A DNA stretch of 64,000 bases from assembly GCF_015326965.1 (NCBI RefSeq), contig NZ_CP017659.1, forward strand, positions 310,001 to 374,000. Reading direction: 5' to 3'. Below the pieces are notes generated by a model that was given only the letters and a program-made list of their open reading frames with translations, was not told where the DNA came from and searched no databases. How positions within the stretch are numbered: position 1 is the stretch's first letter; each line of letters opens with the position of its first letter. The stretch is from Paenibacillus sp. JZ16. GTDB lineage: Bacteria > Bacillota > Bacilli > Paenibacillales > Paenibacillaceae. Position numbers and translations under genes: made by a program. Below, in pieces: positions 8,402 through 18,611 of the stretch.

Positions 8402-9115
8402 ATGCCTAAAACCATACTTGTAGTCGATGATGATCCGGATATCATTGACATGCTTAAACTTTATCTGGACGCAGAGGGATATAAGACGCTCGAAGCTTTC
8501 GACGGGAAAACTGCCCTAGAGCATCTGCGAAGCAGGCACGTGGATCTCGCACTCTTCGATATCATGATGCCGCTCATCGACGGATTCCAGCTGCTCCGTA
8601 TGATGCGGCAGGATTATAAAATCCCGGTTATTCTCATCTCGGCCAAAAATCAGGAGCTTGATAAAATAACCGGACTCAAGCTGGGGGCAGACGATTATGT
8701 GTCCAAGCCGTTCAGCCCGCTCGAAGTGATGGCGAGAATTCAGGCACAGTTAAGACGCTCCTGTGAGTTTAATGAGCCGTTGGAAGCTCCAGCGGTATCC
8801 GAAACCTGCGTCGGGGACTTGCAGCTGGATCACCGGGAATGCATGTTATACATCAAGGGAACGCCGATTTCGCTGAGTGCGATCGAGTACAAATTATTGA
8901 AGCTGTTCATGGGGGAGCCGGGGCGCGTATTTACGAAGAAGCAAATTTTTGAGCATGCCTGGGATGAACTTTATTTGGCTGACGATAATGCCGTGATGGT
9001 CCAAATCAGCAGGCTTCGCGACAAAATCGAGGCTTGTCCCAGGAAGCCTGTCTATATCAAAACCATTCGCGGTCTCGGTTACCGGTTTGCGAAGAAAGAT
9101 GAGTTACAGCCATGA
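8402..9115 (+). CDS. OmpR/PhoB family response regulator
   Basis: This 237-residue cytoplasmic response regulator has acidic residues VVDDDPD near the N-terminus, a phospho-acceptor Asp in LALFDIMMPL near residue 54 and the switch Lys in VSKPFSP near 104. The C-terminal winged helix ends in IKTIRGLGYRF. ATG 8402 follows GGAGGAGG by 8 bases; the open frame extends upstream to a TTG that overlaps this site and is rejected. The stop overlaps the kinase start (ATGA), so the pair is cotranslated. The membrane hydrolase at 10361 is the obvious candidate target. Confidence 0.92.
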   Translation: MPKTILVVDDDPDIIDMLKLYLDAEGYKTLEAFDGKTALEHLRSRHVDLALFDIMMPLIDGFQLLRMMRQDYKIPVILISAKNQELDKITGLKLGADDYVSKPFSPLEVMARIQAQLRRSCEFNEPLEAPAVSETCVGDLQLDHRECMLYIKGTPISLSAIEYKLLKLFMGEPGRVFTKKQIFEHAWDELYLADDNAVMVQISRLRDKIEACPRKPVYIKTIRGLGYRFAKKDELQP

Positions 9116-10263
9116 ATTCACCTAATCGTCTGCAGCGTTCACTGATTCGCCAATATATTTTTTTCTTTGTTACCATTGCGCTTATTGCCGCGTTTTCGCT
9201 ATTTGTATTAAATGCGCTGATCATGGATTATTTTATGGAGGCTTCCGGACCGGTCAAGGCGGAGGCTGGAGTCATAGGCAGTCCAACAGCCGTGCCAGGC
9301 ATGGACAGCGATCAGCATGAGAAGGTGTTTTATGGAATGGCACTGAAAACGCTGCTGCTGTTTCTCGCTTTGTTTGCAATTACCGTATATGTCTTCGGAA
9401 GATGGACGGCATCCCGGCTGACGACCCCGCTCCGATCGATTGCGGATGGTATCCGCAGCATTGCACGTGGACATTACCATGAAAGATTACATTTTCGAGC
9501 GAGCTATGAACTTGCGCAGATTCAGGATGATTTCAATGATATGGCTGCACGGCTCGAACGGATGGAGAGGGAAAAGCGAGAGCTTGCAGAGAGCAAGCAG
9601 CGAATGCTGATTGACATTTCCCATGACCTGAAGACACCGATGACCACCATTCAGGGCTATATCGAAGCGATGGAATTGGGGCTCGTTAATTCGGAAGAGA
9701 GAAGGCAAAAAATCCTGCGTTTGATTTCCGACAAAGCCAGCCTGATGTCGGAGCTGATCGACGGTATCTTCGAGCTGTCCAAGCTGGATAGTCCCGACTA
9801 TCCTTTTGCCGTTGAGGCATCCGACATTACAGAATTCACAAGGGAAATTGCAGCCGAGTATTACGAGGTGTTCGAAGAACAGAAGTTTCATTTCCATTAC
9901 GATATTCCTGACAGTGTAATCATCGTACCATTCAACACGACCTGGTTAAATCGGGCGGTTTCCAATATCCTATCAAACGCTATTCAATACAATCCGCCCG
10001 GTACAGCTGTTGAACTGAAATTGGCAGCAACGGGGAAAGGAGTCGAAATTCACATTACAGACGATGGCATCGGAATTCCGGATGTGTTGAAGGAAAAGGT
10101 CTTCGATGCCTTTGTCCGCGGAGACCAAGCCCGAAAAAGCGATGGGGGGACGGGTCTGGGTCTTGCCATTGCCAAACAAGTGGTTGAAAAACATGGGGGT
10201 AACATCAGGCTGATCACGAACGGGCACACGAAATTCATTCTTTTTCTTCCTAACGAATTGTAA
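9112..10263 (+). CDS. Sensor histidine kinase (HAMP, HisKA, HATPase)
   Basis: This 383-residue membrane kinase is partner to the preceding regulator. Two membrane helices (about residues 13-38 and 78-102) bracket a short extracellular loop of about 40 residues. A HAMP domain follows (about 102-155). The phospho-acceptor His is near residue 171 in DISHDLKTPM. The N box is NRAVSNILSNAIQYN and the G boxes are DDGIGI and GGTGLGLAI. The small extracellular loop argues for sensing within or near the membrane rather than by a large ligand-binding domain. Confidence 0.92.
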   Translation: MNSPNRLQRSLIRQYIFFFVTIALIAAFSLFVLNALIMDYFMEASGPVKAEAGVIGSPTAVPGMDSDQHEKVFYGMALKTLLLFLALFAITVYVFGRWTASRLTTPLRSIADGIRSIARGHYHERLHFRASYELAQIQDDFNDMAARLERMEREKRELAESKQRMLIDISHDLKTPMTTIQGYIEAMELGLVNSEERRQKILRLISDKASLMSELIDGIFELSKLDSPDYPFAVEASDITEFTREIAAEYYEVFEEQKFHFHYDIPDSVIIVPFNTTWLNRAVSNILSNAIQYNPPGTAVELKLAATGKGVEIHITDDGIGIPDVLKEKVFDAFVRGDQARKSDGGTGLGLAIAKQVVEKHGGNIRLITNGHTKFILFLPNEL

Positions 10264-10360
10264 GATTACTGAAAGATTCAGGAAAGCGGAGCGAAAGAGT
10301 TATCCGGTAACCTCAGAAGTAGAACCAACCACTTTAAGGGATACAGGAGGACTGGAGAGA

Positions 10361-12616
10361 TTGGAAATACACAAAGAGAAAGAGAAAGAAAAAGGCGTTA
10401 CTTTTTTTCGAAGAATCATGGCAAACCGGAAGCGTAGGGGGCCGTTATCCCCTGGATGGAAGGGGGCGTCGCTTGGGCTTGGCGCCACCGGCTTTATTCT
10501 AATTTTGATACAGGCCAACTATCTATTGACGGGGCATGGTGTCGGTAAATTCATCGTGGGCACATTCCTGTTTCTCTTTGCGGCTGCCCTTATAAGCGGC
10601 CTAGCATCAATGTTGCTGCACGGGGTCAAGAAACTACCAAGCCGTTATATTTGGATGTTGCTGTATTCCCTGATCATGTTTTTGTTCTGTTTTATTGTGC
10701 AGCCGGGCGTATCGGCAGTCTTCATCGTCTCTTTGGCCATTGTTTTATCTTTATTTGGTGCATTGGCTTATAAATTTGCAGCGGGAAGCTACAAGCAAGT
10801 GTCTAAAACCAGGAAAATCGGCTCGATGGCCTGTTTGTCCTTGATCACCATCGCGATCGGCGCGGGCAGTTTCTGGCTGATTCGTGCCGGAGATGATGCC
10901 GCTCCGGACATCACATTGAAACAGCTGAAAATCTCAACCCGATATGAAGACTCGATGATTAACCCGGCCGAACAAGGCACATATCCCGTCCAAAGTCTGT
11001 TATACGGAAATCCTGACAACTATCGGACAGAATTTAACCAAAGCGGTTCCCTAACCACCCAAACGGTGGATGCGTCCAGGTTTGTTGAGAAATGGTCGTC
11101 TTTGCGCACGAAGTCGCTTGGATTCGGACCCGAGGCCATGCCGTTAAACGGAAGAGTGTGGTATCCCGAAGGGGAGGGCACCTTTCCGCTTGTTTTGATT
11201 GTACATGGTAATCACTTAATGAATGATTATTCCGATCCGGGTTATGAATATCTCGGCAGGCTGCTCGCGAGCAAAGGGTATATATTTGTCTCCGTGGATG
11301 AAAATTTCCTCAATTTCTCCCCATATGAGGATCTATTCCTGATCAATCCGCTGCTAAAGGAAAACCCGGCAAGGGGTCTGCTGCTGCTGGAGCATTTGCA
11401 AACCTGGAAGGGCTGGAACAGCGATCCGGACAACCCGTTTTACCAAAAGGTCAATATGGAACGAATCGCCCTCATCGGTCATTCCCGAGGCGGCGAAGCG
11501 GTCGCGATCGCGGCAGCGTATAACAAGCTTAGCCGTCATCCGGACCATGGGGATATCAAGTTTGATTATAACTTCTCGATCCGCTCGCTCATTTCCATTG
11601 CGGGAACGGACGGGCAATATAAGCCGCAAGGCAAACCTTTGCCGCTGCAAGACGTAAATTATCTGGCTTTGCATGGAGCTCATGATATGGATGTCAACAG
11701 CCTGGACGGTGCGAAGCAATATCACCGGATTCGTTATACCAAGGGCACAAATTACATGAAATCGCTGATCTATATCTATGGAGCCAACCACGGCCAGTTT
11801 AACGGAGGCTGGGGCAGAGGGGATGGGGCAGGGTTGGGGAACCAACTGTTTAACCTACGTCAAATTATGCCACGGGATGAGCAGGAAACCATCGCAAAAG
11901 TGTTCATATCTTCGTTCCTGGATGCCACGCTGAAGGACCAAAGGCAATACAGGGAGGTGTTCAAGGATTTGGGTTATGCCAAGGAATGGATTCCCGACAA
12001 TCTGTATGTGGGCAATTATTACGATTCGCAGATGACTTTGATCGCCAATTTTCATGAAGACATCGATCTGCAGAGCACCACACTTACCGGCGGCAGCTTG
12101 CAGGGCGAGAACCTGCAGCAATGGAAGGAAGAAAAGGTTAAGACAAAATTAGGCGAAGCGGATTACAGCGCGGTTCGCTTAGGCTGGAATTCGAACGGTT
12201 CGTCCGAGCCTGCGTCCTATACGGTTACTTTGCCGGATAACGGGGTGGAAACAGGGAGGGATAGCTCGATCGTATTTTCGCTGGCAGATGCACGCAAAAC
12301 AGAAGAAAGCGGCGACCCGAAAGAGCTTATCAATTTTACGATTACGGTTGAAGATAGGAAGGGCCATCAGGCAAGTCTTCCCCTCAGCCACATATCCAAG
12401 TTGCCGCCTGTTATTGAAGGTAAACTTCTCAAATGGCCATTTTCGAATGCAGGCAATACTTCAGAACCTGTATTTCAAAGCTATGATTTCCAGTTAGACG
12501 ATTATCACAAAATGAATCCGGACTTCAACCCGCTGCAGTTGAGCAAGATTCGCATCGAGTTCAATCTAACCAAGCGGGGAAGCATTCTGCTTAGTGATGT
12601 AGGCATTCGATCATAA
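10361..12616 (+). CDS. Membrane-anchored alpha/beta hydrolase
   Basis: The 751-residue product begins with TTG 10361, 10 bases after AGGAGG. The first 200 residues hold about five to six membrane helices. A serine hydrolase domain follows (about 255-545) with the oxyanion region LVLIVHGNH, the nucleophile elbow GHSRGGE (Ser near 375) and a histidine candidate in IYGANHGQF. The last 190 residues are beta-rich and resemble no family I can name. The hydrolase part looks like the PETase/chlorophyllase-type superfamily. It follows a two-component system by 97 bases without a visible terminator, so it may be cotranscribed and be the output of that system. The substrate is unknown; an ester in the envelope or environment is the inference. 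Confidence 0.7.
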   Translation: MEIHKEKEKEKGVTFFRRIMANRKRRGPLSPGWKGASLGLGATGFILILIQANYLLTGHGVGKFIVGTFLFLFAAALISGLASMLLHGVKKLPSRYIWMLLYSLIMFLFCFIVQPGVSAVFIVSLAIVLSLFGALAYKFAAGSYKQVSKTRKIGSMACLSLITIAIGAGSFWLIRAGDDAAPDITLKQLKISTRYEDSMINPAEQGTYPVQSLLYGNPDNYRTEFNQSGSLTTQTVDASRFVEKWSSLRTKSLGFGPEAMPLNGRVWYPEGEGTFPLVLIVHGNHLMNDYSDPGYEYLGRLLASKGYIFVSVDENFLNFSPYEDLFLINPLLKENPARGLLLLEHLQTWKGWNSDPDNPFYQKVNMERIALIGHSRGGEAVAIAAAYNKLSRHPDHGDIKFDYNFSIRSLISIAGTDGQYKPQGKPLPLQDVNYLALHGAHDMDVNSLDGAKQYHRIRYTKGTNYMKSLIYIYGANHGQFNGGWGRGDGAGLGNQLFNLRQIMPRDEQETIAKVFISSFLDATLKDQRQYREVFKDLGYAKEWIPDNLYVGNYYDSQMTLIANFHEDIDLQSTTLTGGSLQGENLQQWKEEKVKTKLGEADYSAVRLGWNSNGSSEPASYTVTLPDNGVETGRDSSIVFSLADARKTEESGDPKELINFTITVEDRKGHQASLPLSHISKLPPVIEGKLLKWPFSNAGNTSEPVFQSYDFQLDDYHKMNPDFNPLQLSKIRIEFNLTKRGSILLSDVGIRS

Positions 12617-12678
12617 CATGTATGGTCTTATAGGATGACTTTGATGACTGCCAGTCGACAAGAACTCTATACGATGAA

Positions 12679-12701
12679 GAAGCCGCCATACTGGCGGCTT
12701 C
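12679..12701. terminator. Bidirectional terminator hairpin
   Basis: GAAGCCGCCA and TGGCGGCTTC form a perfect 10-bp stem with a 3-base loop. It stands between the convergent hydrolase and BceS-like genes. The T tract is short (CCTTTGATTT), so it could serve both strands weakly. Confidence 0.65.
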
Positions 12702-12734
12702 CTTTGATTTAGGTTGGGTAGCGGGCTCAAACCG

Positions 12735-13763
12735 TTACAGCAAGCTGTGATACGTATCCGTTTTAGGAAAATGGATCGTGACCTTGGTATAAGCTCCCGC
12801 CTCCGATTGGATGGATAAATGATGGCCCAGCTTATGCACTAATTGCTTTGCGAGGTAAAGACCCATGCCGGTCGATTTGGCATGGCTTCTTCCGATGGAA
12901 CCGGTAAATCCTTTATCAAAGACTCGATGAAGATCTTCCGGCTGAATTCCGATGCCCGAATCTATAATATGCATCCTTTTTTCCTGTCGGTCCTCCTCGA
13001 CCGTGAATGTGATGGTTCCGCCTTCATTCGTATATTTCAAAGCATTCGCAACGATTTGATCAAGGATAAATCCGAGCCATTTCCGGTCGGTATGAACCGA
13101 TTGCCGAATGTCCTCCATATGAAAGCGAATCCGCTTGTTGATAAACGTTTTTGCGAATTTTTTCGCACAGGTTTTAATGATCGCGTCTAATGGTTCTTCC
13201 GTGATGAAGTAATCTTTGGAGAAGGAATCAATTCGAGAATAGTATAATGCCTGCTCCACATAATTTTCAATTTTGTCGAGCTCATCCTCAAGTTTATCGG
13301 CTAGGGAATCTGCTGTTTCCCCGGTGCTATTCTCCATTAGCAGACGACTTGCCGCTATCGGAAGTTTCACCTCATGAATCCAGGACAAGATAAATTCCTG
13401 ATGATCGATCTTCTCTTCATTCAGTTTCCGAAGGTCGCGTTCATGTTGGCGATGCAATTTGGTGAAAAGCTCGAGATACAGCCGTTGTTGCAAGTTTTGT
13501 GGTTCAGGGGCAACGACAGTCCAATCATCCCGGTCCAGATGGATCAGTTGCTGAAGCTTCCGGTAATAGGATCTTCGATAATAATAGCCAATTAGCAAGT
13601 AAGCTGCGACCAAGGCAAAGCAAACGATATGAATATACAGCAAGTTGCCTGACACGAGGGCCGGGTTGAAGGATAAAGTCATGATTATTGAAATAAAGCC
13701 CATCATACCCGCGTACAACATCAAAAAATAACGTTTGTCCTTTATGTATTGAATGAAACTCAT
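12735..13763 (-). CDS. BceS-like sensor histidine kinase
   Basis: This 342-residue kinase is of the intramembrane-sensing type. Two membrane helices near the N-terminus (about 12-32 and 40-60) are separated by only a few residues, so there is no extracellular sensor domain. The phospho-acceptor is in SWIHEVKLPIAA near residue 129, the BceS-specific form of the H box. The ATP-binding domain has NALKYTNEGG, DSGIGI and GMGLYLAKQL. Its start overlaps the stop of the regulator (ATGA, minus strand). Such kinases sense flux through a partner BceAB transporter, which here is encoded divergently at 14670. Confidence 0.9.
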   Translation of the reverse strand: MSFIQYIKDKRYFLMLYAGMMGFISIIMTLSFNPALVSGNLLYIHIVCFALVAAYLLIGYYYRRSYYRKLQQLIHLDRDDWTVVAPEPQNLQQRLYLELFTKLHRQHERDLRKLNEEKIDHQEFILSWIHEVKLPIAASRLLMENSTGETADSLADKLEDELDKIENYVEQALYYSRIDSFSKDYFITEEPLDAIIKTCAKKFAKTFINKRIRFHMEDIRQSVHTDRKWLGFILDQIVANALKYTNEGGTITFTVEEDRQEKRMHIIDSGIGIQPEDLHRVFDKGFTGSIGRSHAKSTGMGLYLAKQLVHKLGHHLSIQSEAGAYTKVTIHFPKTDTYHSLL

Positions 13764-14431
13764 GGGACCATATAACCTTGCCCTTTCTTGGTAACAATCC
13801 AGTTTTCCTTTCCGATGCCGGCCAGTTTTTTACGCAAGCGGACGATGTTAACGGTTAACGTGTTTTCGTCCACGAAGCTTTCATCCTGCCAAAGATGACG
13901 CATGATTTTCTTACGGTCAACAACCTTTCCCTTTTGCTGCATGAGGATTTTCAGTATACTGACCTCCGTTTTGGTAAGCTCCGCTTTCCCTCCTTCATAC
14001 GAGAGAATACCTTTCTCCGGATGGAACATGACCCCCTCATGTTCGAGCACATCCGATTGCATGTCCGAATAGGAATAGGTTCGGCGCAGCAGCGCATTAA
14101 CTTTAGCGGTCAACACATCCATATGGAACGGCTTCTGAATATAATCGTCCCCGCCCATATTCACTGACATAACAACATCCATGGGCGAATCGCGGGAAGA
14201 AAGAAAGACCACCGGTACATTGGAAATTTCTCTTATCTTCTGACACCAGTAAAATCCATCATACGAAGGCAGGTTAATATCCATGATGACAAGATGGGGT
14301 TGGTTATGAATAAAGCACTGTACGACATGGTCAAAGTTTTCGACGATTACCGTTTCCAAGCTCCATTTGGTTAATGCTAATTGGATCATCCCCCGAATGG
14401 TCGGGTCATCCTCTACGATCATGATTTTCAT
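13760..14431 (-). CDS. BceR-like response regulator
   Basis: This 223-residue OmpR-family regulator has MIVEDDPTIR at the N-terminus, the phospho-acceptor Asp in VIMDINLPSYDGF and the switch Lys in IQKPFHMDV. The C-terminal winged helix includes DENTLTVNIVRLRKKL, characteristic of Bce-type regulators, and ends with VTKKGQGYMV. It is divergent from the bceA-like gene with 238 bases between. It probably activates that promoter in response to a peptide antibiotic. Confidence 0.9.
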   Translation of the reverse strand: MKIMIVEDDPTIRGMIQLALTKWSLETVIVENFDHVVQCFIHNQPHLVIMDINLPSYDGFYWCQKIREISNVPVVFLSSRDSPMDVVMSVNMGGDDYIQKPFHMDVLTAKVNALLRRTYSYSDMQSDVLEHEGVMFHPEKGILSYEGGKAELTKTEVSILKILMQQKGKVVDRKKIMRHLWQDESFVDENTLTVNIVRLRKKLAGIGKENWIVTKKGQGYMVP

Positions 14432-14530: not shown

Positions 14531-14548
14531 ATGTGACAGGAATGTAAG
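14531..14548. promoter_or_regulatory. Possible BceR-type binding site
   Basis: A segment TGTGACAGGAATGTAAGG lies in the divergent region between the bceR-like and bceA-like genes. It resembles my recollection of BceR sites with TGAC and TGTAA half-sites, but the match is weak and the consensus was not checked. Confidence 0.3.
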
Positions 14549-14669: not shown

Positions 14670-15437
14670 ATGAAAATGGTAGTGAACGCTTCTCAGATTA
14701 GAAAGGTTTATGGCGTAAAAGGAAATGTATATACCGCCTTGGATGATATCGATTTGACCGTGCAGGAGGGAGAGTTCGTGGGGATCATGGGGCCGTCCGG
14801 CGCAGGCAAGTCGACATTGCTCCATGTGCTTGCGACAATTGATCAGCCTACTTCGGGAGAGGTGATGATTGACGGGGTAGACGTACTGAAGATGGATGAG
14901 GAACAATTATCCGCTTTTCGCCGGGATAAACTGGGATTCATTTTTCAAGATTACAATTTGCTGGACACTTTAACGGTGAAGGAGAACATCTTGCTGCCCT
15001 TGGCGCTGGCCAAGATGAATGTCAAAGAACTGGAGCATAGAGTGGAGGAAATCGCGGACAAATTCGGCATCACCCCGATTCTGAACAAATACCCGTATCA
15101 GATTTCCGGAGGGCAAAAACAGCGGACTGCGGCTTCACGCGCCATGATTTCCGGCCCCAGTCTGCTGCTGGCCGATGAGCCGACCGGCGCTCTGGATTCG
15201 AAATCGGCGACCGCGCTGCTGGAGAGCCTGAAAGACCTGAATGAATATGATCAGGCAACGATTTTGATGGTCACTCATGACACGTTTGCGGCAAGCTACT
15301 GCACGCGGGTGCTGTTTATAAAGGATGGTCGCATTTTCACCGAACTGACTAGAGGAGATGCATCCCGCAAACACTTTTTTAAAAAAATATTGGATGTATT
15401 GACCGTTTTGGGAGGGGATGCAAGTGACCTTGTTTGA
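14670..15437 (+). CDS. BceA-like ABC transporter ATP-binding protein
   Basis: This 255-residue ATPase is of the MacB/BceA class. Walker A is GPSGAGKST (about residues 41-49), the signature ISGGQKQR near 150 and Walker B LLLADEPTGALD near 170. The C-terminal tail after residue 225 (HFFKKILDVLTVLGG) is the extension typical of BceA proteins. It overlaps the permease gene by 14 bases. Together they should remove or release cell-wall-active peptide antibiotics from their lipid targets and signal to the BceS-like kinase. Confidence 0.92.
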   Translation: MKMVVNASQIRKVYGVKGNVYTALDDIDLTVQEGEFVGIMGPSGAGKSTLLHVLATIDQPTSGEVMIDGVDVLKMDEEQLSAFRRDKLGFIFQDYNLLDTLTVKENILLPLALAKMNVKELEHRVEEIADKFGITPILNKYPYQISGGQKQRTAASRAMISGPSLLLADEPTGALDSKSATALLESLKDLNEYDQATILMVTHDTFAASYCTRVLFIKDGRIFTELTRGDASRKHFFKKILDVLTVLGGDASDLV

Positions 15438-18400
15438 CATCGTGAAAAAGAACATGAAAGGGAACTTCAAAAACTACACGATCTATTTCATTTCCATCCT
15501 GTTCAGCGTCATTATCTATTATACTTTTCTTTCTTTGCAATACAGCCAAGAAATTACGAGTTCAATCGAATCATCGCAGAGCATGCGATCCGTTTTTATG
15601 ATAGCATCCATCATTTTGATCGTATTTGTTACCGTCTTTATTATGTATTCCAACCGTTTTTTCTCCAGGCAGCGTAAAAAGGAAGTAGGCTTGTACGCGT
15701 TACTTGGTCTACCCAAAAAAAGATCGGAAAAATGCTGTTTTATGAAAACCTGATCATTGGGGTAACTGTTTTAATCATAGGAATCTTGATTGGCACATTG
15801 TTGTCCAAGCTGTTCGCTATGATCTTAATCAAGCTGCTGGGGACGCCGGTACAGGTAGGCATGGCTTTCTCTCTTCGAGCTCTGATTCATACGCTCATCG
15901 TGTTCATGGTGATTATTTTGGCGACGTCGATCCAAGGCTATCGATTGATTTACAGCTTTAAACTCATCGAATTGTTTCGCGCGGAGCAGGAAGGGGAGCA
16001 AGAGCCGAAAGCGTCGTTTCTATCGGCAGTGGGTGCAGTTCTCTTTTTGACTGCGGGATATGGGTTCGCCTTCCGCGATTTTGCCGTCACCGAAGAAATT
16101 CTTGTCAATCTGAGCGTGATGACTGTCGGAATTATCGCTGGAACGCTTCTGCTCTTCTCCTCGCTGGTCATTGTCTTGCTGAGAACCGCCAAGAAGAGAA
16201 AACGAAGTTATTATAAAGGCATGAATTTGGTCATCACCTCTAATTTGGTGTACCGGATTAAAGGAAACGCTCGTTTGTTAAGCGTCATTTCCCTGTTATC
16301 CGCTGCGGCGTTGTGCGCCTTCAGCGTCGGCTTAGGCGCATACTATACGTTTGACAAAACATCGAAGCTTACCGCTCCATTTAGCTACATGTATATTGCC
16401 CAGGACAACGCCTTTAATAAAAAAGTAGACGAAATCATACGTGGAGATGAAGCGCATCCGATTATTGCGCAAATGACGATTCCGGTGCTGGAGACAAAAG
16501 GGGAGGCTTCCAATCCAGAGATCCTTCCGGAGAGAATGATCGAAGCAGACAAAACCCCGCTCAAAGTGGTCTCGATCGATCAATACAACCAGGTGGCAGC
16601 GGCGCTGCGCTTCCCTGTACTTGATCCGATCGAACAGGATGAAGCTATAGCGATCCGGCCCATGTATACGGACTATGAGTGGCCCGATTATGAAGGCGAA
16701 ACGGTCGATATCGAATTGCCGGATCAACGGTTAACTCTTGCTTTTACGGGGATGACCGTAGAACGAATCATGAATTGGAGTTATCCGGATGTGATGATTG
16801 TTGTAAGTAACGGCACCTACGACAAAATGGAGGCGCAAGTTTCTCCGACCCGCTATGTCGGGTATGCGGTGCAGGAACAGAAGACGACGAAGCACACGGC
16901 TGATGCGCTGGCGTCGCTGAAGACACCGGAATCGAATTTATCTTCATATTATTCCGAATACCGTCTTGGAATCGAAGAAGCGGCCTTTAATGTGTTTATC
17001 TTAGGATTTCTTGGGCTCGTTTTTGTCATGGCAACAGGCAGCATGATCTATTTCAAGCAGCTGACTGAAGCAACAGCAGACAAACCACGGTACGATATTC
17101 TTAAAAAAATCGGTGTAAGCGGAAAAGAAGTAAGTGTGGCAATCATTAGGCAGAACGCATTTATTTTTGCTTTGCCGCTCATGATCGGCCTTGCACATTA
17201 CATGGTCATCCTGCAATTGTTAAAAAGATTATTCAGCAATATGGCAGGCGCCAGTCTCATGCTGCCCATCCTGATCTGCGTGGCTGTGTTTTTCCTGATC
17301 TACACGGTTTATTATGTGCTCACGGTCAACTCCATCAACAGGATCGTCAATGGAAGGTCTGCCCCCGTGGTTAGAATTGCGGCTATCGCAATCATGGTCT
17401 GTCTTCTGGTTCTGATTGGAATCTTCTTCAGCACGGAAACCCCTGCAACGCAGGATGAGAGGGGCCAGGCAGAGAAAATCCAATTACAGCTACCAGAACC
17501 TACTGGAGAATATTCTGTGGGGACGATGGAAATGCACTTCAAGGATGACAACCGGGTGGATCCATGGAAACAGGACAGAGACAGGGAACTCATGATCAGC
17601 ATATGGTACCCCGCCACGGGAAAAAGCGAGCAGAAGGCAGTGTACATGCAGCCCGAAGCAGCAAAATATTATGATGAAAACACAATCTCGACGATCGGAT
17701 TGGATCCCGGTCGGGTCGATCTCTCCGGTATCGGCACTCACGCTTGGTTAAATGCACCGCCGGCGAACAACGACGTTGGGTGGCCGCTGCTCATCTACTC
17801 ACCTGGCGGGTCTGTTCCAAGAAACTTCGGGACGGCTGTAGTCGAAGACTTGGCCAGCAGAGGTTATGTGGTCGTTACAGTCGATCATACGTATGAAGCC
17901 TCTGCGGTCCAATTTCCCGATGGACGTGTGGCAACGGAGTCATTACCGCCTTTCAGTGCAGAGACGGTACTGAAGATGCTGGAGGTAAGAGTGGATGATA
18001 TCCAATATGTGTTGGACCAATTCGAACTCATCAAGGAAGGCAGTCATCCAGGCGATCAACCATTGCCCGCTGGACTTCAACAAACATGGGACCTGTCTAA
18101 GATCGGAATATTCGGACATTCCGCCGGCGGGGCTACTGCTGCTCAGGTGATGTACGAGGATGATCGCTTTGACGCTGGCATCGACATGGATGGAACGATG
18201 GGCCACATGCCCGATAATCCATTGCCGGTGGCGCAGCATGGTTTGGATCGCCCTTTCATGCTCATGAATTCAGGCTACAATAAGGATGGCGAGGTTGATT
18301 CCCATCTAACCGCGATGGACCGTCAATCGTTCTGGCAGCATTCGACCGGCTGGAAACTCGATCTAACTATTCCCGAGGGAGCACATTATACGTTTACAGA

Positions 18401-18611
18401 TTATCAGACGCTGCTTCCACAGCTTCAAGATAAGCTGAGCCTATCGCCGCGAGTAGTCCAGCAATTTATCGGAACTGCCGACCCGAAACAGACAATCGCT
18501 GCCCATCGAGATTATGTCGCTGCCTTCTTCGATTTTCATTTAAAGGGTGCTCCACAGCCGCTGCTGACCTCTCCGTCCGCAGACTATCCAATGGTTGATT
18601 TGTTGAAGTAA
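15424..18611 (+). CDS. BceB-like permease fused to PAF-acetylhydrolase-like domain (frameshifted at an A tract)
   Basis: GTG 15424 follows GGAGGGG by about 7 bases. The frame reads a BceB N-terminus (MTLFDIVKKN) for about 97 codons, then breaks at seven A (15715-15721). Adding one A, or a -1 slip, restores the expected KIGKMLFYEN and joins the frame that runs to 18611. The permease part (to about 17360) has FtsX-type helices and the large extracellular loop between helices 7 and 8. Beyond the normal BceB end (INRIV) follow an extra helix (IAIMVCLLVLIGIFF) and a serine hydrolase with YSPGGS, nucleophile GHSAGGA near 18118, Asp in DMDGTMG and His in GAHYTF. With ten BceB helices the eleventh would place the hydrolase outside. 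An in-frame GTG at 17367 behind GGAAGG might allow separate translation of the hydrolase. The frameshift may be a sequencing error. Confidence 0.75.

Follow-up and report, generated by a model that had tools for sequence, protein, structure and literature searches.

A Bce-type permease fused to a serine hydrolase in Paenibacillus and other Bacillota

Bce-type systems free lipid-bound targets from peptide antibiotics, and their modules are thought to protect the cell in this way and not by destroying the drug. The permeases of BceAB-RS and PsdAB of Bacillus subtilis carry no enzyme, and the solved BceB and PsdB chains have 646 residues. The subject here is a gene in a 64,000-nucleotide stretch of Paenibacillus sp. 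JZ16 (contig NZ_CP017659.1, positions 310,001 to 374,000; hereafter the window), at window positions 15424 to 18611 on the + strand, in which a permease only about 25% identical to BceB runs on into a serine hydrolase. This fusion is a real, conserved and apparently undescribed variant of the Bce-type module. A preceding sequence-only reading of the window knew of no described example. That holds for the literature searched, part of it represented by titles and the openings of abstracts, which contains no description of a BceAB permease fused to a hydrolase domain, but DrcAB is a close conceptual precedent (PMC12033364).

According to Marciniak et al. (PMC12033364), DrcAB is a mobile Bce-like system that inactivates daptomycin by transferring dehydroalanine to kynurenine, after which the kynurenine-threonine ester is hydrolysed; the authors attribute both transferase and hydrolase activity to it and were surprised that a Bce transporter should inactivate a drug. 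As in the window, the RS genes of DrcAB-RS are divergent and its A and B genes overlap by 14 bp, and the system inactivates its drug rather than providing target protection alone, as we propose for the fusion. Unlike the fusion, DrcB is described in the available text of that paper without mention of an esterase, an acetylhydrolase or FtsX.

The hydrolase shares its fold and triad motifs with the ferulic-acid esterase R18 of Streptomyces cinnamoneus (5YAE/5YAL), and the 338 residues that align structurally are 38% identical. R18 differs in being a single-domain protein (342 residues in the solved chains) with no transporter, named for activity on phenolic esters. Identity to plasma PAF acetylhydrolase/Lp-PLA2 (PF03403), a human lipid enzyme, is about 20%. 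SfhA of Streptomyces Mg1 opens the ester of a lipopeptide ring outside the cell, as proposed here for the fusion, but is a free secreted cyclic-lipopeptide hydrolase; it is probably PAF-AH-like, a point that carries no weight in the argument here. The bacitracin amidohydrolase BahA of Paenibacillus LC231 resembles the fusion in combining membrane helices with an alpha/beta hydrolase that acts on a peptide antibiotic, and differs in having no ABC permease and in cutting an amide (PMC5155152). Opening of the orfamide ester by Rhodococcus serves as background only (PMC11203913).

Anatomy of the permease-hydrolase protein

The features of the gene, with transmembrane helices abbreviated TM, are as follows.

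15424..15753, + strand: permease N-terminal piece of about 109 codons, out of frame with the remainder (FtsX E 3.4e-5, below the Pfam cut-off)
15732..18611, + strand: rest of the permease and, continuing in the same frame, the hydrolase, 959 residues (open frame, Pfam domains and match to the P. lautus locus L018)
16374..16946, + strand: large domain between TM7 and TM8, the extracellular domain of BceB (transferred from residues 318-508 of the P0001 model, offset 103)
17364..17432, + strand: extra transmembrane helix, TM11 (P0001 model helix 648-670, offset 103)
17490..18608, + strand: PAF-AH II/ferulic-acid-esterase-like serine hydrolase domain
18120..18122, + strand: predicted catalytic serine codon, in GHSAGG (aligned to GHSIGG of 5yae)
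18189..18191, + strand: predicted catalytic aspartate codon, second D of DMDG (invariant alignment column)
18384..18386, + strand: predicted catalytic histidine codon, in GAHYTF (aligned to GGHMTFTD of 5yae)

The list of open reading frames (ORFs) gives 15732..18611 as a single uninterrupted frame of 959 residues. Its first 540 or so residues correspond to a BceB-type permease without the N-terminus, followed by a hydrophobic helix and then the hydrolase. FtsX is matched at residues 426-539 (E 6.6e-5, 23.4 bits, slightly short of the Pfam cut-off of 25.5), and PAF-AH_p_II (PF03403) at residues 584-902 (E 1.1e-16; its 60.8 bits exceed the cut-off of 20). In the model of the homologue P0001, whose alignment comprised 87 listed proteins including 29 of 32 fusions (P0003, P0007 and P0022 were left out), the permease shows the BceB fold, with 10 helices and a large domain between TM7 and TM8.

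The complete serine hydrolase and the extra hydrophobic helix before it, both proposed from the letters alone, were recovered here. The GHSAGG, DMDG and GAHYTF motifs lie at 18114-18131, 18183-18194 and 18378-18395, respectively, and the Ser-Asp-His triad is complete by alignment in the window and in 31 of 32 relatives. The linker helix has a hydropathy maximum above 1.6 in all 32. The same reading would place the hydrolase outside the cell if BceB has its termini inside, and the predicted topology agrees: TM11 follows the C-terminus of the BceB fold and the TM10-TM11 loop is net positive, which supports an extracellular hydrolase. Separately, the fusion protein of Novibacillus thermophilus (P0003) loses its frame directly before the catalytic histidine, and its hydrolase is probably dead.

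Distribution, origin and reading frames

A search of 5.8 billion proteins, in which 7995 candidates were scored and 420 reached E <= 0.001, yielded 120 listed proteins; among these, at least 32 homologues of 995-1082 residues (56-91% identity) contain both Pfam domains. Among genome contigs (genome_contigs), a relative is encoded in 432 stretches, of which 80 were kept; the top 20 of these (L009-L028) are fusion loci whose matches cover essentially the whole query protein. Their hosts are recorded as Paenibacillus, Shimazuella, Schnuerera, Clostridium, Alkaliphilus, Aminicella, Epulonipiscium and Pseudobutyrivibrio. No stop interrupts the matched stretch in 19 of the 20 (1056-1066 codons), so homologues do not regularly have a stop between permease and hydrolase, an outcome that would have undone the proposed fusion. 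The remaining locus, L026 of Paenibacillus sp. TCA20 (10001-13171), is interrupted by a stop six codons after the match begins, and its N-terminus is irregular. The fusion is uncommon in the genus, since 99 other Paenibacillus genomes hold 5 intact copies in 4 genomes; by their coordinates, at least 3 of these 5 (in G031 and G032) are L018, L020 and L023 again. One genome, that of Paenibacillus lactis (G031), carries two different fusion modules, L020 and L023.

A permease tree of 86 rows, from a short search with no bootstrap, unites the 25 fusions in a single group, supported at 100 by the SH-like approximate likelihood-ratio test (SH-aLRT) and with one change of state. The rows comprised the 80 loci, four fusions from P0001-P0032, one paralogue from the JZ16 genome and the window. 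The hydrolase tree, which omitted P0003 because of its frame-shifted end and included 27 non-Bce proteins (a DedA fusion among them) plus one protein of the JZ16 genome, also places the fusions on one side; its support is only 67, and a single origin of the fusion therefore rests on the permease tree. The DedA fusion (P0133, 669 residues) joins a DedA-family membrane protein to the same hydrolase family and is thus a second kind of membrane protein with this enzyme. The JZ16 genome itself encodes four further stand-alone hydrolases of the family, L003 (G000:C1:216911-218014), L004, L005 and L008, in open frames of about 500 codons, and L003 has N-terminal hydrophobic helices by eye.

An unfused version also occurs naturally. 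At locus L030 of P. mendelii, a hydrolase gene (P0122, 439 residues), which looks as if it carries a signal peptide, lies directly before the ATPase gene, and the permease is encoded separately; this permease falls outside the fusion group, the response regulator is shortened, and a kinase gene was not found nearby. L030 is the sole one of 60 non-fusion loci with such a hydrolase within 7 kb of the permease. Both the fusion and this gene neighbourhood therefore link transporter and hydrolase functions.

Records named [Clostridium] ultunense and Pseudobutyrivibrio ruminis (the latter a metagenome-assembled genome) hold copies of the entire module (L010 and L012, 6297-13428 in each) that share 99.86% identity across 7.1 kb. 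Over 4.1 kb, the P. ruminis record is 99.1% identical to Aminicella, which belongs to another family, and L010 is 99.2% identical to the Aminicella locus L013. Such near-identity seems to reflect either recent transfer of the fusion unit between distant Bacillota, which would make it mobile, or a contaminated record. Among 72,556 plasmid records, none matches at least 80% of the fusion, and these records contain no near DNA match to the P. lautus module.

The window copy is irregular in its reading frame. The ORF at 15424-15753 (GTG start) encodes the permease N-terminus in frame 1, and the rest of the permease and the hydrolase lie in frame 3. Aligned to the window, the intact ORF of P. lautus L018 breaks into two segments, one in frame 1 at 15418-15741 (90.7% identity) and one in frame 3 at 15714-18608 (91.8%), and because these lie in different frames, 15424-18611 is one gene split over two frames in this assembly. 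The in-frame fusion originally proposed for the whole of 15424..18611 thus stands for 15732-18611, with both domains in 959 residues, and fails for the first 100 or so residues; no stop occurs in this frame near 17360 of the assembly sequence, where one would have contradicted it.

Together with the early stop of L026, the split might suggest that the fusion is an artefact of assembly or annotation. This is already refuted by the 19 loci from separate records with one open frame, the intact copies in the genus, the single clade and the conserved linker helix. That the JZ16 gene is dead, its permease inactivated by the frame break and its remainder decaying, is a sizeable possibility to which we give somewhat less than even weight. 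In its favour, the five fusions in the other genus genomes are full-length and each occupy one open frame, unlike the window copy. Against it, 16 of the 17 L018 ORFs that match the window have their main match in one frame, and the ratio of nonsynonymous to synonymous substitution rates (dN/dS) relative to L018, at 0.115 for the hydrolase and 0.10 for both the permease part and the N-terminal piece, equals that of the neighbouring genes (0.09-0.13). The fusion is conserved and under purifying selection, and the break is therefore recent, an assembly error or bypassed somehow. It falls in an A-rich stretch, a setting in which slippage or an error of assembly may also occur. The gene in JZ16 may or may not work; intact copies exist in relatives.

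The surrounding Bce-type gene set

Around the fusion lie the other components of a Bce-type module.

12735..13763, - strand: BceS-type sensor histidine kinase, 342 residues, divergent from the transporter genes (HATPase_c E 1.8e-22)
13760..14431, - strand: BceR-type response regulator, 223 residues (Response_reg and Trans_reg_C)
14534..14547, + strand: predicted BceR-type operator TNACA-N4-TGTAA upstream of the ATPase gene (pattern match)
14670..15437, + strand: BceA-type ATPase (ABC_tran E 2.8e-34), overlapping the permease start by 14 bp

An adjacent ATPase gene is present in all 20 fusion loci, and a divergent response regulator and kinase in 17; the contig of L013 is too short, and L023 and L027 have no such pair nearby. 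Among NCBIfam families the window kinase scores best against the SapS sensor kinase, with 290 bits where the cut-off is 550. The operator follows the BceR-type consensus (PMC9020739), and its 15-base pattern with a trailing G occurs once in the 64 kb, where 0.05 matches are expected. It lies upstream of the ATPase gene, at -100 to -137, in 18 of 21 fusion loci (window included; it was not seen upstream in L015, L016 and L025). Of the 60 non-fusion loci, 21 have it, and chance would give about 0.009 matches per 300 bp. Sequence comparison thus supports the placement of the fusion in a complete Bce-type module of ATPase, kinase, regulator and operator.

Adjoining this module, at 10589-12613 (+), is a gene for a 675-residue protein that combines hydrophobic stretches near the N-terminus (18-102) with a domain of the alpha/beta hydrolase type (Chlorophyllase E 1.3e-8). 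Its layout resembles that of BahA of Paenibacillus LC231, and a two-component system lies at 8402-10071 (+).

Proposed function and relation to daptomycin inactivation

We give about even weight to the proposal that the locus is a Bce-type sensing and detoxification module whose permease carries an extracellular serine esterase after its eleventh helix, with ester-closed lipopeptides as the likeliest substrates. The fusion, the single permease clade, the intact triad, the Bce gene set, the operator and the natural unfused version, all established from sequence or model, form its basis. The divergent kinase would sense flux through the transporter and the response regulator would induce the operon. 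The ABC transporter would release the antibiotic from the lipid target that it holds at the membrane, and the esterase attached to the permease would at once hydrolyse an ester (macrolactone) bond in the freed drug and so prevent rebinding. Ester-closed cyclic lipopeptides of the daptomycin class, or similar soil depsipeptides, would be the likeliest substrates. If true, target protection and drug inactivation would be joined in one induced protein.

P. lautus NBRC 15380 and ATCC 43898 are, we presume, one type strain. The NBRC 15380 genome holds an intact fusion (L018), which is also its best match to a DrcB-like permease (47%, E 7.9e-182). According to Bhullar et al. (PMC3324550), P. lautus LC231 opens daptomycin at the kynurenine-threonine ester, and ATCC 43898 shows a similar inducible inactivation; the responsible protein was not purified. 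A later genome study of LC231 names daptomycin once in its main text and calls ATCC 43898 a type strain (PMC5155152). From these observations on P. lautus and the intact fusion of NBRC 15380 we infer that the esterase domain may cleave the ring of ester-closed lipopeptides. The fusion is thereby a concrete candidate gene for the unexplained opening of the daptomycin ring in Paenibacillus. More specifically, the fused permease-esterase could itself be the daptomycin-inducible activity of P. lautus, a membrane machine that would extract the Ca2+-bound lipodepsipeptide from its target and destroy it with a covalently attached esterase, in which case sensitivity to ethylenediaminetetraacetic acid (EDTA) would reflect the need for Ca2+-daptomycin at the membrane and not a metallo-enzyme. 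We know of no earlier ABC permease of antibiotic resistance that would bring its own enzyme for cleaving the drug. We hold this identification as tentative and rather doubtful. BceAB of S. pneumoniae is reportedly avoided by daptomycin.

Several observations weigh against a lipopeptide-opening module. The nearest solved esterase is a ferulic-acid esterase, with activity on plant phenolics, in 59 of the 60 non-fusion loci (some on short contigs) a hydrolase of this kind is absent from the 7 kb around the permease, and the copies in the window and in L026 are irregular as described. The P. lautus activity is EDTA-sensitive and not significantly blocked by serine esterase or protease inhibitors (PMC3324550), a behaviour unlike that of a serine hydrolase; the EDTA effect may be explained by daptomycin's own need for Ca2+. 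Finally, inactivation of daptomycin by DrcAB seems to need no fused hydrolase domain, because the DrcB-like clade has none.

The same hydrolase could instead act on a membrane lipid, such as oxidised phospholipids, lyso-phospholipids or a peptide-displaced lipid, and repair or remodel the envelope beside the transporter. We consider this unlikely, since the domain matches the ferulic-acid esterase (E 2e-55 to 5yae) far better than it matches Lp-PLA2, where E is about 7e-11, its named stand-alone relatives among those listed are mostly lipases, alpha/beta hydrolases and dienelactone hydrolases, which still leaves room for a lipid substrate, and nothing else in the locus points to lipids. The resemblance to a ferulic-acid esterase could also suit an enzyme that destroys or modifies another class of drug or signal (an amide, lactam or phenolic ester), or one that makes the inducer, with the Bce part mainly a sensor. 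BahA offers a parallel, since this membrane alpha/beta hydrolase cuts a side-chain amide of bacitracin (PMC5155152). Family and triad are, however, those of ester hydrolases, and no gene for an inducer was looked for beyond the neighbours given above; we judge this alternative quite improbable.

Orthology of the window gene with DrcB was considered and rejected on the permease tree and pairwise identities. DrcB fits far better with a permease-only clade of 13 loci with 96.4-97.2% DNA identity to L043 and a Melghirimyces locus at 84.2%; the figures in the drc paper are 97.20-99.64%, with 83.26% for N. thermophilus (PMC12033364). The frame loss in P0003 had been considered as the cause of the failed N. 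thermophilus experiment, and this idea was dropped along with DrcB orthology. The fusions lie outside the clade whose identities fit DrcB, in a comparison that relied on the identities published for DrcB of M. sciuri TS92. Members of this clade are 641 residues long and about 46-47% identical to the two fusions compared. Published DrcB is thus unlikely to be a fusion, since the clade is permease-only and a hydrolase domain is not mentioned in the available text. The 72,556 plasmid records contain no near DNA match to the L043 permease. The clade members (L043, L048, L050, L051, L054-L056, L058-L062 and L077) share a Bce-like gene of 641 codons at 96-97% DNA identity across many genera, and by these identities it is probably the mobile drc locus described in PMC12033364.
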